Assembly: GCA_003168375.1 (NCBI GenBank)
Contig: PMSI01000001.1
Span: 1,054,001-1,118,000 of the forward strand
Direction: 5' to 3'
Source: Vulcanimicrobiota bacterium
GTDB lineage: Bacteria; Vulcanimicrobiota; Vulcanimicrobiia; Vulcanimicrobiales; Vulcanimicrobiaceae
Length of the DNA stretch: 64,000 nt
The position numbers and the translations under genes are program-made. This document shows, one piece after another, positions 59,840-64,000 of this stretch (positions are counted from its first letter, which is position 1; each line of letters starts with the position of its first letter). Under the pieces are notes generated by a model. That model was not told where the DNA came from, made no database searches, and saw only the letters and a list, made by a program, of their open reading frames with translations.

Positions 59840-61714
59840 CTACCGGCCGATCGCTGCGTTCAGCGCGTCGACGTCGACGCTTCCGATCCCGCTCGTGTAG
59901 TCGTAGTTCGGCAGCGCGGAGTAGGCGCCGTTCGCACCGTTGATCACGTCGTGGAACGGTCCTACGTTGATCGTCGGCGGCGGGCCGAGCAGTTTCGTGC
60001 CCGGATTGCTCGTCGCGAAGGTGTGGTAGAGCGCCGGCGGAGCGAAGCCGAGCGCGGGATGCGCGTTCAGCATCCGGGCGTACGCGCCCGCCATCAGCGG
60101 CGACGAGAGGCTCGTGCCCCCGATCACCGTCCACCCGGTTGACGCGGTGTAGAGGATCATGCCGGTCTGCAGGTCGCCGTCCATCGCGACGTCCGGCAGT
60201 CCGCGGAAGGTGAAGCCGACCGGGGTCGAGCTCGCCGGCTGCACGCCGTTCTGCCAGTACGGCGAGTATTCGAACTGGCTGATCCCGCCGCCGCCGGCGT
60301 TCCAGGCCGACTCGCCCTGATACGTCCCGTCGACCTGCGACCACAAGGTCGTTCCGCCGACCGCGTTGACGTACGGCGAGGCCGCCGGGTACTCGACGAG
60401 CGGGAGACCGCCGTCGACGCCGTTCGGGTTGCCGACGGAGCAGAACGATCCGGTGTCGCCGGTTGAGGCGAACATCGTCTGCCCCTGCGCGGCGCCTTCG
60501 AGCAAGATCTCGTCGTCGATCAGCATCGAGCCGTCGACGTACGGCCCGTACTCGCAGCCGCCGAACGACGAGTTGGCGATCGGCGCGAGGTCGTCGGTGA
60601 CCCAATGGTTGTACTCGAGCGCGATGTCGGAGTCGGTGAGCGACGTGGTCGCGTAGACGTAGAGCGTGCTCACGTTCCCGGCGAGCCCGGTCGACGCCGT
60701 CATGTCGAGCGTCCACTCGTCCGCGCCGGCCGTATCAGGGCTGGCGAGGCCGACCTGTTTCACGACCACGGGGACCTGCGGCAGACCGTCGCCCTGTTCG
60801 TTCACGCGGAAGTCCGCGATCGACGGCTGGACGTTGCCCTCGGCCATGATCGCGACGCTGACGTTCGCCGCGGCGGGCGTCGTGTTCACGTCGTATGCGC
60901 GCCAGTAGTCCGACGGCGTGTAGTTGCGCGGGCAGCCGGTCGTGTACGCCTGCGGCGTCGGGATCGCTTGCGGCGAGGGCAACCCGATGATGAAGACGCT
61001 CGAGAACGCGCACGGTGATTCTGGTTGCGGAGCGGCCGCGGAGGCGACCGCCGGCGCGTGGTTCACGGTGGTGGTTCCGCGATGGTGTCCGGTCGCGAAC
61101 GTCGTCACGTTGCTCAAGCCGAGAACCGCGACGACGATCCCGTCGAGCGCGGACGGCACGTATGCCGGCGCGGTGTTCGCGAACACCGTGGCGCCGCTGA
61201 GCGAGAAGCTGTGGAGGGACGTGTTGAACGCTTTGGCGACGTTCGCCGCGCTGCCGGTGGCGCTGACGATTACATTGTTCGGCTCGACCGTGACGCTGCT
61301 CAGCCCCTGACCCTGCAAGTAGCTCACCACCTGCGCCGCCTGGGCGGCCGTCGGCCCGTATGAGCGCACCTGGCTTGGCGAGAGCTTCTGCCTCGACACC
61401 ACCGCCTGCTTGAGCGCGTCGACGTTTTGGAGTTGCAATCCGAGGCGCACCGTCAGCGTCTGCGCGGGATTGAGCGCGCCGAGGTCCGACGCGTTCTTCA
61501 GGCTGAATGCCTGGGTCGCGGTATTCGCCCAACCGGCCGGCGCTGCGGCGCGAGCGAGGTCTCGTGTGGTGCGCGCGCCGCGGGCGGATGCCGTCGCGGT
61601 CGATGCGGACTGCGTCTGCACGCCCGACGGGAGCATCGAGCTTGCGCCGTGCCCTCCCGAGCAAGATGCCGTCGTGACGCCGAGCGCCACGGCGAGGGCT
61701 GCGAGTCGTTTCAT
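59840..61714 (-). CDS. S53 sedolisin-family peptidase lipoprotein, with prodomain
   Basis: 624 residues. A very strong ribosome site (GGAGGAGG) precedes ATG 61714. The signal ends in a lipobox-like TTASC (Cys18). A pro-kumamolisin-like activation domain spans about 60-220, and the catalytic domain has Glu333 and Asp337 in DEWTLDMTAS, oxyanion Asp420 in ASTGDTGSF and Ser535 in GGTSLSSP. Sedolisins act at acidic pH. It probably acts at the cell surface. It shares the CGGAAACCGGG element upstream with the neighbouring S53 gene. Confidence 0.93.
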   Translation of the reverse strand: MKRLAALAVALGVTTASCSGGHGASSMLPSGVQTQSASTATASARGARTTRDLARAAAPAGWANTATQAFSLKNASDLGALNPAQTLTVRLGLQLQNVDALKQAVVSRQKLSPSQVRSYGPTAAQAAQVVSYLQGQGLSSVTVEPNNVIVSATGSAANVAKAFNTSLHSFSLSGATVFANTAPAYVPSALDGIVVAVLGLSNVTTFATGHHRGTTTVNHAPAVASAAAPQPESPCAFSSVFIIGLPSPQAIPTPQAYTTGCPRNYTPSDYWRAYDVNTTPAAANVSVAIMAEGNVQPSIADFRVNEQGDGLPQVPVVVKQVGLASPDTAGADEWTLDMTASTGLAGNVSTLYVYATTSLTDSDIALEYNHWVTDDLAPIANSSFGGCEYGPYVDGSMLIDDEILLEGAAQGQTMFASTGDTGSFCSVGNPNGVDGGLPLVEYPAASPYVNAVGGTTLWSQVDGTYQGESAWNAGGGGISQFEYSPYWQNGVQPASSTPVGFTFRGLPDVAMDGDLQTGMILYTASTGWTVIGGTSLSSPLMAGAYARMLNAHPALGFAPPALYHTFATSNPGTKLLGPPPTINVGPFHDVINGANGAYSALPNYDYTSGIGSVDVDALNAAIGR

Positions 61715-61771
61715 GTGGGTTCCTCCTCCTCTGCACCGAGCGTACGGGCTGGGGCGGAGGCCCCGACATAC

Positions 61772-61782
61772 CGGAAACCGGG
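61772..61782 (-). promoter_or_regulatory. Shared upstream motif CGGAAACCGGG, first S53 gene
   Basis: On the coding strand this reads CCCGGTTTCCG, 57 bases before the start codon; the same 11-mer lies 74 bases before the second S53 gene (63162-63172). The surrounding TACCGG-AAA-CCGGGTA is partly palindromic. A candidate binding site for the neighbouring MalT-type activator. Confidence 0.55.
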
Positions 61783-61788
61783 TAGGTG

Positions 61789-63087
61789 CTAGAGGCCGCC
61801 CAGACCGCTTGGGCTGCCGATCCCGGTGAGTTGGTGGTAGCCGCTCCCGTCGATCTGGTGGAAGCTCTGCCAGCGCTGGTACGAGTAGCCGGGCGCGGTA
61901 AGCCGTCCCGACAGCGCGTACGCCGCCGCGATCAGCGGGGCGCCGACGCTCGTTCCGCCGGCGACGTACCAGCCGCCGCCGGTCGTGCTGAACGTCGCGA
62001 CGCCGGTTTGCGGGTCGGCGACCGCCGAAACGTCGACCGCCTCGCGCGTGCTGCAGCGCAGGTGCGCTTGGAACCAGGGCCGGCTGACGTACTTGCTGCA
62101 GCCGTGGCCAGCGTACTTCCAGCCGGTCTCGCTCCAACCGCTTCCGCTGCGCGAGAGCGCGGTGCCGCCGACCGCGGTGACCGTCGCTGCAGCCGCCGGA
62201 TACGAGGGGTAGCCCCGGTCGCCGGAGCTCGCGGTGATCGCGACGCCGTCATGGCGGTAGTGCGCGTCTTCCGCGCTCTGGTTCGCCCACTCGACCGCGT
62301 AGTAGCTGTTGCTCACGGCCTGCGCACCGAGGCCGACGGCGACGTCGACCGCCGCGCCCAGATTGTCCAGCAGCGCGGAGTCGGCCTCGACCAGGACGAT
62401 CGAGCAGCGCGGACAGGCGGCGGAGACCATGTCGAGGTCCAAGGCGATCTCGGCCGACCATCCCGTGTCGAGCGACGGATACGAGCCGCTTTGGCCGCGC
62501 TGGTTCACTTTGCGAAAACAGCCGTTCGCTGAGGTGCACTCGGGGAGGCCGAAGGCGGCGCGGTAGACCGCGAGGTCGGCTTCCGCGGTCGGGTCGTCGT
62601 AGGCGTCGACGATCGCGACCGTCCCGCCCGGGAGCTGCGAGGCCAGCCCGTAAGCACTCTGCAGATCCGCCGGGTGGAGGCCGGGGATCGCGGCGGCGGG
62701 GAGGCCGGGATTCGCGCTCGGCGGCACGTTGAGGTTGATCGCCGCGGTGCAGGCGGCGGTGCCGGCCGCCGGGACGCCGGGGCACGCGAAGCTGGCGCCC
62801 GGGAGTCCGGCTGAGGATTCACCGGGCAGGCCGGCCGACGATTCGCCGGGGAGGCCCGCCGAGGACTCGCCCGGCAATCCGGCCGAGCTTTCGCCCGGGA
62901 GCCCGGCCGAGCTCTCACCGGGCAGGCCCGCCGAACTTTCGCCGGGCTGCCCCGATGCTGCGTCCGTCGCGGCGCGAGTCCGTGAGCCTTGCAAGTCAGG
63001 GCGCGCGGCCGGAGTCGCCGGCGCGAGGGCGCCGCCGGAACAGCCCGCGAGGGCGATGAGGGCGAGAATTGCGAGCGTGCGATGCAT
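61789..63087 (-). CDS. S53-type peptidase lipoprotein with PGESSAGL repeats, no prodomain
   Basis: 432 residues. Signal with lipobox LAGC (Cys16), then six PGESSAGL octapeptides (residues 48-95) instead of a kumamolisin prodomain, then a sedolisin catalytic domain: Glu213 and Asp217 in SAEIALDLDM, oxyanion Asp290 in SSGDRGYPS and Ser380 in GGTSVGAP. The catalytic set is complete, so the enzyme should be active without a propeptide, or folding is aided otherwise. The 74-bp gap to the first S53 gene downstream contains that gene's motif. Confidence 0.92.
   Translation of the reverse strand: MHRTLAILALIALAGCSGGALAPATPAARPDLQGSRTRAATDAASGQPGESSAGLPGESSAGLPGESSAGLPGESSAGLPGESSAGLPGESSAGLPGASFACPGVPAAGTAACTAAINLNVPPSANPGLPAAAIPGLHPADLQSAYGLASQLPGGTVAIVDAYDDPTAEADLAVYRAAFGLPECTSANGCFRKVNQRGQSGSYPSLDTGWSAEIALDLDMVSAACPRCSIVLVEADSALLDNLGAAVDVAVGLGAQAVSNSYYAVEWANQSAEDAHYRHDGVAITASSGDRGYPSYPAAAATVTAVGGTALSRSGSGWSETGWKYAGHGCSKYVSRPWFQAHLRCSTREAVDVSAVADPQTGVATFSTTGGGWYVAGGTSVGAPLIAAAYALSGRLTAPGYSYQRWQSFHQIDGSGYHQLTGIGSPSGLGGL
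62803..62946 (-). repeat. Six 24-bp coding repeats (PGESSAGL)
   Basis: Six consecutive 24-bp units encode identical octapeptides, but the DNA copies differ at many synonymous positions. The peptide is thus conserved by selection rather than by recent duplication. It forms a flexible Ser/Pro/Gly-rich stalk between lipid anchor and catalytic domain. Confidence 0.85.
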
Positions 63088-63161
63088 GTCCGTCCGGTTC
63101 CAAAAACGAGCATGGTGGCAGGTCGCTTCCCCGGGCCGCGCTGCCGAAAGGGGCTTACCCA

Positions 63162-63172
63162 CGGAAACCGGG
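63162..63172 (-). promoter_or_regulatory. Shared upstream motif CGGAAACCGGG, second S53 gene
   Basis: The 11 bases are identical to those at 61772-61782. The copy lies in the 115-bp divergent gap between the second S53 gene and the MalT-type regulator, where it could serve both. Confidence 0.55.
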
Positions 63173-63188
63173 ATTCCGAAGCCGAACT

Positions 63189-63202
63189 GGGACCAAGGTC
63201 CC
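63189..63202. promoter_or_regulatory. GGGACC-AA-GGTCCC palindrome at the regulator start
   Basis: A perfect 6-bp inverted repeat with a 2-base centre ends directly before the GTG of the MalT-type gene. It would mask the AAGG ribosome site if folded in RNA, or act as an operator. Confidence 0.45.
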
Positions 63203-64000
63203 GTGATACCGGTCACTCGTTTGCTTCGCGCGCGCGTCAACGACCGTCTGACCCGTGCCGCCCGCTTCCCGGTCACCCTCATCGTCGCGCCCGCCGGGTT
63301 CGGCAAGAGCGTCGCGTTGCGCGATTTCGTCGAGACGTCGCGGCTCGAAGCGGTACGGTACGACGTCGCGCGCGAGCACCGCACGCTGATGGCGTTCGTA
63401 CACGGGCTGAGCGCTGCGCTCGAGCCGGTCGCGCCGAGCGCGATCGCCGCCTTTCCGGCGATGCAGCAGCTGATCATGGGCGCGACCGATCCGGTCCGCG
63501 AGCTCGCGAGCTGGTTCGCGGAGCACCTCAAGCGCACGGTCTGCACGATCGTGGTCGACGACCTCCACTATGCGGCGGTCGATCCCGATGTCGTCGCGCT
63601 GCTCGTCGATCTGGTCGAGCGCGGCGGCGAGCGCATCCGGTGGATCATCGCGACCCGCTCGGATGCGGGACTCCCGACCGCTTCGTGGATCGGCTACGGC
63701 CGCATGGACTACCCGGTCGGCGAGGACGATCTGCGCTTCACCGTCGAGGAAGCGCTGGCGACCGCCGACGACGCGCAGGCCAGTACGGAGCCGAGCGAGG
63801 TCGAGGCGCTGCGCGAGCTCACCGGCGGATGGCCGATCGCGCTGTCGATCGCGCTGCGCACGCGCACGCACGCGGCCGACTTGCGCGCCGCAGCGACCGG
63901 CACGCGCGAGATGGTGTACCGCTACCTCGCGGAGCAGGTGTTCACCGGCCTCAAACGCGGGCAGCAGATGTTCCTCTTGCGGACCTGCGTCTTTCCGACG
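63203..64000 (+). CDS. MalT/LuxR-type STAND ATPase regulator, cut by window end
   Basis: 266 residues are visible from GTG 63203 and the frame is open at the window end. RVNDRLTRAARFPVTLIVAP leads into the P-loop APAGFGKSVALRDF (about residue 34); Walker B is CTIVVDDLHYAAVDP (about 115); ATRSDAGLP is the sensor region and ELTGGWPIALSIALR the conserved winged element of MalT-like proteins. The missing C-terminus would hold TPR-like repeats and usually a LuxR DNA-binding domain. It is divergent from the S53 lipoprotein genes and is their likely regulator. Confidence 0.88.
   Translation, partial: MIPVTRLLRARVNDRLTRAARFPVTLIVAPAGFGKSVALRDFVETSRLEAVRYDVAREHRTLMAFVHGLSAALEPVAPSAIAAFPAMQQLIMGATDPVRELASWFAEHLKRTVCTIVVDDLHYAAVDPDVVALLVDLVERGGERIRWIIATRSDAGLPTASWIGYGRMDYPVGEDDLRFTVEEALATADDAQASTEPSEVEALRELTGGWPIALSIALRTRTHAADLRAAATGTREMVYRYLAEQVFTGLKRGQQMFLLRTCVFPT

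Follow-up and report, generated by a model that had tools for sequence, protein, structure and literature searches.

The promoter of a sedolisin-type peptidase gene, S53-1, very probably carries a conserved NarL/LuxR-type 7-2-7 site that is held at a fixed distance from the -10 box, where class II activators sit, as judged from comparison of related genomes. The gene lies in the window, i.e., the whole 64,000-nucleotide stretch of DNA analyzed here, together with S53-2, a divergent S53 lipoprotein peptidase, and the first part of a MalT-type STAND regulator gene. We infer, with good support, that this adjacent regulator probably binds the 19-bp site and switches on S53-1 and other targets; taken together, the promoter site and the regulator acting through it form a reading that is likely on balance. 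More tentatively, an octapeptide repeated within S53-2 may be the inducing signal, and this peptide array, absent from the finding of an earlier note on the same DNA, is the more interesting feature of the locus. All of the evidence for the circuit is comparative.

A conserved 19-bp element upstream of S53-1

The earlier note proposed a regulon of two S53 lipoprotein genes sharing an 11-mer, CGGAAACCGGG, beside a divergent MalT-type gene. The 11-mer does occur exactly at 61772-61782 (site 1) and 63162-63172 (site 2), with no further exact copy in the window, and the gene starts stand as given (S53-1 at 61714 and S53-2 at 63087, both on the minus strand; the regulator at about 63203 on the plus strand). 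As a special two-copy motif it fails, since the 4.43-Mb source genome (7 contigs) holds 6 copies where about 6.6 are expected at 68.5% GC; because the count matches the base-composition expectation, the 11-mer alone is no evidence. It was rejected as a functional unit, the 19-mer around site 1 being the real extent of the motif.

Specifically, site 1 forms the center of a longer, conserved element of 19 bp, CTACCCGGTTTYCGGTATG, with a TANNNT -10 box 21-22 nt downstream. In the window, the activator-type site (CTACCCGGTTTCCGGTATG, gene-sense; 61767..61785, minus strand) is a 7-2-7 inverted repeat, TACCCGG-TT-TCCGGTA, that includes the first 11-mer (61772-61782) and lies 22 nt from the -10 box of the S53-1 promoter, TACGCT (61739..61744, minus strand). 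Pattern searches, on which the site counts for the source genome rest, found four copies of the 19-mer when up to 3 mismatches were allowed (0, 0, 1 and 1 mismatches, none with 2-3), and the reversed control found 0; a looser pattern, CTAC-N10-GTATR-N20-23-TANNNT, returned the same four sites and no others. Among 33 aligned sites, TAC-N10-GTA is invariant (33/33) and TANNNT lies 21 or 22 nt downstream in all, the -10 pattern having formed part of the selection for most of them. The S53-1 promoter has the layout of NarL/LuxR class II promoters, with an inverted repeat adjoining the -35 region at a fixed spacing to the -10 box. LuxR-type class II activators sit near -43, and if transcription starts as usual, the site would be centered near -43, in the class II activator position. 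No credible Rfam match for an RNA element was found. The geometry and half-sites of the element are those of the NarL model (test) site TACCCCTAAAGGGGTA, which consists of inverted heptamers with a 2-bp gap and the half-site TACC (PMC4549865), whereas the regulator proposed here is a STAND protein and not a two-component response regulator.

Site 2 (63162..63172, plus strand) has in common with site 1 only the core, scores -9.2 bits against 27-35 for the matrix training sites, and falls outside the 19-bp site family. When the divergent MalT/S53-2 region was compared across eight genus members, its 11-mer was kept just in the source genome and was absent from the seven relatives, and upstream of MalT no 19-bp element was found in 23 genomes. 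With its low matrix score and lack of conservation, site 2 was rejected as a regulatory site, a chance match being the best reading. Conservation upholds the site upstream of S53-1, kept in the family, and not the one upstream of S53-2, so the motif is not common to both genes. The earlier note was, on present comparisons, largely right about the players, in that the two S53 lipoproteins and a STAND/LuxR regulator of MalT type are conserved together as a unit; it erred on the extent of the motif and on S53-2 as a target, the latter fitting better with the supply of the signal than with the role of a second target. The same MalT/S53-2 intergenic region holds a block, GGGGCATGGCTGCTT-N-TATACCC (63118-63160 in the window; equivalents in G088-G091 and G093), that is conserved in the genus and degenerate in the source genome.

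Genes preceded by the site and its distribution

The four sites of the source genome, all with the same promoter layout, precede S53-1, an unlinked pro-kumamolisin paralogue (C6:1085k) and two copies of a Cys-rich protein gene (C5:251666 and C6:773447), and in relatives the genes with the site also include an esterase and other lipoproteins. Two of the four (those of the small Cys-rich gene) lie in homologous flanks. That all four are mere duplicated DNA was rejected for S53-1 and its paralogue, which are 48% identical, are both preceded by the 19-mer and have otherwise largely diverged upstream DNA. The small protein, of 62 Cys/His-rich residues (MFCSCLHAEESHHENGCHAL...), has no Pfam match and occurs with the 19-bp promoter (L030, L031, L073, L070); in the source genome its gene adjoins RHS-repeat-like genes.

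Across 99 genomes of the family, the element occurs 20 times in 10 genomes when one position is left free and a single mismatch allowed, and the strict pattern including the -10 box gives 32 sites in 21, all within this single family (reversed control, 0); another 18 genomes from the class had none. The strict site is present in 20 of the 27 genomes with a MalT orthologue versus 1 of the 72 that lack one (p=4e-14), and first S53-1-type genes carry it in 31/33 cases where the orthologue is present and in 1/6 where it is absent (p=2e-4), counts that are not phylogenetically independent and partly reflect linkage and shared ancestry. The sole strict-site genome among the 72, G095, appears to have a deleted cluster, in which a MalT HTH remnant persists at 92% identity. 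There, the end of S53-1 abuts the last 93 residues of MalT (L208 5534-6310, C385; L172), and the other S53 gene is without its middle, reflecting either a real deletion or an assembly artefact.

Several individual genomes bear on the association. In G055, S53-1 lies on a different contig from MalT and the site is still upstream of it, and in four genomes without MalT the first S53-1 homologues (~51-53% identity) are without the site. G098, a 74% complete genome, has the site and no detected MalT orthologue, and in G046 (L169 5044-5760) the gene downstream of the site is not S53-1 but one for a NarL-type response regulator. Variants of the site also occur. In G089 (L221 3866-3884), one is flanked on either side by a -10 box and an S53 gene, the two genes being divergent, as if it served both; a second variant, [CA]TACCCGATTTTGTGTATG, precedes paralogous S53 genes in five genus members (L216, L218-L221), and a form related to it is found at L217.

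The regulator and its gene cluster

The MalT-type STAND regulator gene (63203..64000, plus strand) is indeed divergent beside S53-2 and extends beyond the window, which holds its first 266 codons; the full-length protein of 856 aa is encoded at C4:1117203-1119773. It comprises a STAND NTPase, a long helical TPR-like solenoid and a C-terminal GerE/NarL-type HTH (residues 793-848), which is the NTPase, TPR-like sensor and GerE HTH composition of the MalT-type STAND/LuxR class. E. coli MalT has the same domain order and provides the best curated model for the regulator, and the model of the G088 orthologue resembles STAND-TPR 6mfv, MalT 8bob and MalT domain III 1hz4, with RapH among the weak matches. 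The protein is no MalT equivalog, scoring 137.5 bits against the NCBIfam cut-off of 537, with TAC-N10-GTA rather than MalT boxes as the conserved site. MalT sites overlap the -35 region (PMC7567727), and the activator site here is similarly next to or over it; the 7-2-7 TAC-N10-GTA inverted repeat nonetheless differs from both the GGGGA(T/G)GAGG box of E. coli MalT and the Actinoplanes TCATCC-N5-GGATGA site (PMC7567727), and the targets here are proteases.

MalT orthologues (49-85% identity) are present in 27/99 family genomes and adjoin S53-2 in nearly all of the loci fetched, mostly with S53-1 as well, such that the cluster of MalT, S53-2 and S53-1 is kept across genera of the family and the MalT and S53 genes are linked in most genomes. 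MalT is divergent in this genus and mostly codirectional elsewhere. Relatives of the regulator are found in Candidatus Eremiobacterota genomes, which places the window in that phylum. Conservation among the orthologues is near its highest in the HTH and its recognition helix (0.82-0.85), against 0.55-0.71 in the sensor.

In a second recurring cassette (L158, L160, L164, L166, L168), a MalT-like STAND protein, often without an HTH, is followed by an HD_5 (HD-GYP-like) protein of ~310 residues and by an S53-2-like lipoprotein, and some of these lipoproteins carry other repeats (PISSRAI, PIGAEAI, NVMALPG). A MalT paralogue in the source genome (L162 5235-7760; G000:C4:407735-410263) is interrupted, with 2 TGA and 1 TAG in the match, and adjoins an S53-2-like gene.

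The S53 peptidases and the tandem peptide array

S53-1 (59840..61714, minus strand) is a standard sedolisin (MEROPS S53) with a pro-kumamolisin domain (Pfam PF09286, 1.7e-21), a match to PDB sedolisin 1nlu (3.6e-40 over residues 260-622) and Ser-Glu-Asp catalytic residues: E333 and D337 (EWTLD), the D in STGDTG (from 417) and the S in GGTSLSSP (from 532). Its N-terminal signal leads to Cys-18, with a marginal lipobox (TTASC). S53-2 (61789..63087, minus strand) has the lipobox LAGC (Cys-16) and the catalytic residues E213, D217, D290 and S380, invariant in the orthologue alignment. Single-sequence searches and Pfam models miss its S53 assignment, which comes from a profile match to TPP1 (7e-4) and from Foldseek, where the top ten matches are all S53, with kumamolisin/sedolisin best (3e-7); with a mean pLDDT of 44, the model was used for fold class only. 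S53-2 is accordingly assigned, at low model confidence, to the predicted sedolisin fold with the Ser-Glu-Asp catalytic set; it differs from other sedolisins and kumamolisins in having no PF09286 and no N-terminal inhibitory pro-domain.

Between the lipobox and the peptidase domain, S53-2 contains six ESSAGLPG octapeptides in tandem (62797..62940, minus strand; residues 50-97), identical in amino acids and different in codons. An array of two or more units, each ending in [GAT][LM]PG or a close variant, is found in 21 of the 24 MalT-linked orthologues read, the others having a degenerate run (G061) or a single unit (G046 and G026), and the units per orthologue number 1-8. The unit differs by species: ESAQGLPG x5, EAAAGLPG, ESAMGMPG, DSASAMPG x3, NGANALPG x4, ENATGLPG x5, GNGATGLPG x4 and DNPSALPG x3 are all seen. 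Within a gene, copies differ at 2-6 of their 24-27 nt and are identical in amino acids in 16/18 species examined, the exceptions being an L/M change in G090 and an odd-length unit that breaks register in G055. Silent divergence between copies is high (pS 0.58) and replacement divergence low (pN 0.06, much of it at the first, or edge, copy), and one pair of DNA-identical copies was seen in the whole survey. Recent slippage was rejected as the origin of the array, its copies being almost never alike in DNA; the pattern looks like that of selection on an exact repeated peptide, and unlike either recent slippage or a free linker. No array was found among 26 S53-2-like peptidases without a detected MalT neighbour, against 21/24 MalT-linked ones (p=3e-11, for counts that are not phylogenetically independent). 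Divergence of the unit tracks that of the MalT sensor weakly (partial rho 0.20, p=0.06), which is no more than suggestive of coevolution of the two. Taken as a whole, the locus resembles a peptide-pheromone precursor in its multiple copies, protein-level constraint, divergence between species and receptor-like neighbouring gene.

A proposed circuit and its alternatives

In the proposed circuit, which would be self-contained, the MalT-type regulator would bind the 19-bp site as a dimer through its NarL-type HTH and switch on S53-1, the unlinked S53-1 paralogue and, in relatives, other secreted proteins. The species-specific octapeptide would be cut from the S53-2 lipoprotein by S53 activity, imported through an oligopeptide permease and bound within the regulator's TPR-like solenoid, so that peptide released by a cell or its kin would induce surface proteolysis in that cell. 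S53-2 would thereby act as precursor, MalT as receptor-activator, and S53-1 and other secreted proteins as output. The source genome has 19 matches to SBP_bac_5 (oligopeptide-binding type), and such permease proteins are common in bacteria (11/14 control genomes). MalT and S53-2 are without the site, which leaves no visible feedback on the signal gene.

A serious contender, if somewhat short of probable, holds that the site and regulon are real and that the array is no more than a flexible tether joining the peptidase to its lipid anchor, with MalT sensing a nutrient, a polymer fragment or degradation products. The Gly/Pro/Ala/Ser-rich units do resemble linkers, residues 1-137 of S53-2 are modelled as disordered (in a model that is poor as a whole), S53-2 lacks a feedback site, and silent-only differences would also arise in a linker of repeats if it were unusually constrained. 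Yet silent sites are near saturation while almost no amino acid changes between copies, the 26 similar lipoprotein peptidases without MalT have no arrays, and paralogous MalT cassettes carry other repeats, e.g., PISSRAI x3 and PIGAEAI x3.

It is unlikely that the 19-bp site is bound by a different LuxR/NarL-type regulator instead of the MalT protein encoded beside it. Bacteria have many GerE-domain regulators, and the site before a NarL-type gene in G046 and that of G098 could point to one of them; against this stand the co-occurrence of site and MalT orthologue across family genomes, the unlinked S53-1 of MalT-bearing G055, which keeps its site, and the S53-1 homologues of the four MalT-less genomes, which have none. 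Less probable again is that the array serves as an autoinhibitory or sacrificial pro-sequence in place of the missing pro-domain of S53-2: it lies where PF09286 would be, but the unit sequence changes from species to species, unlike the conserved catalytic domain, and the 26 S53-2 relatives without a MalT neighbour lack it. Finally, that the common 11-mer is a chance match at both places is very improbable, for its expected genome count accounts for site 2, while the 19-mer, its controls and its conservation rule chance out for site 1.

Relation to known peptide systems and significance

Each step of the proposed peptide circuit has a separate precedent, in Phr pheromones (PMC11343458), PipR (PMC4981722) and the -35 sites of MalT (PMC7567727). 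The tandem Phr pheromones Phr3T and Phr105 are cut by extracellular proteases (PMC11343458), and their RRNPPA systems likewise place a secreted precursor with identical or near-identical repeats of 5-10 residues beside a TPR receptor (PMC11343458). Theirs are 1-4 repeats in a propeptide of 50-120 aa in Bacillota (PMC11343458), whereas here 1-8 units lie in a lipid-anchored peptidase of Eremiobacterota, with a STAND LuxR protein as the candidate receptor in a putative signalling system; with a STAND/GerE regulator, and a peptide inside a peptidase rather than in a separate small propeptide gene, the locus falls outside RRNPPA quorum sensing. PipR of Pseudomonas GM79 is a regulator of LuxR type that responds to imported peptides by activating the peptidase gene next to it (PMC4981722), and differs in being an OryR-type LuxR solo with no known self-encoded repeat peptide. 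The yeast alpha-factor precursor MFalpha1 also contains several peptide copies, in numbers that vary between close relatives (PMC5850478); it is eukaryotic and has no peptidase domain in the same chain. A literature search retrieved no paper joining Eremiobacterota and sedolisin, and the papers it retrieved for Eremiobacterota and quorum sensing look unrelated from their titles and abstracts.

The locus supplies an operator and a set of targets open to direct testing, for a so far unstudied STAND regulator whose phylum is represented here by metagenome-assembled genomes alone. Arrays alike in protein but different in DNA are, moreover, a strong signature by which other cases could be sought. 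To our knowledge, MalT-type receptors form a large family, for few of whose members an inducer is known; if the peptide step is true, the octapeptide would be a natural peptide ligand for such a receptor and would extend self-encoded peptide signalling to Eremiobacterota. It is possible, though doubtful as yet, that the locus represents a new class of bacterial peptide signalling, in which a pheromone array inside a lipid-anchored S53 peptidase is paired with a MalT-type STAND/LuxR receptor, a 7-2-7 operator and surface-protease targets. If so, the MalT-like/HD-domain/S53 cassettes that are paralogous to it, and whose repeats differ, would run in parallel as channels of like design.
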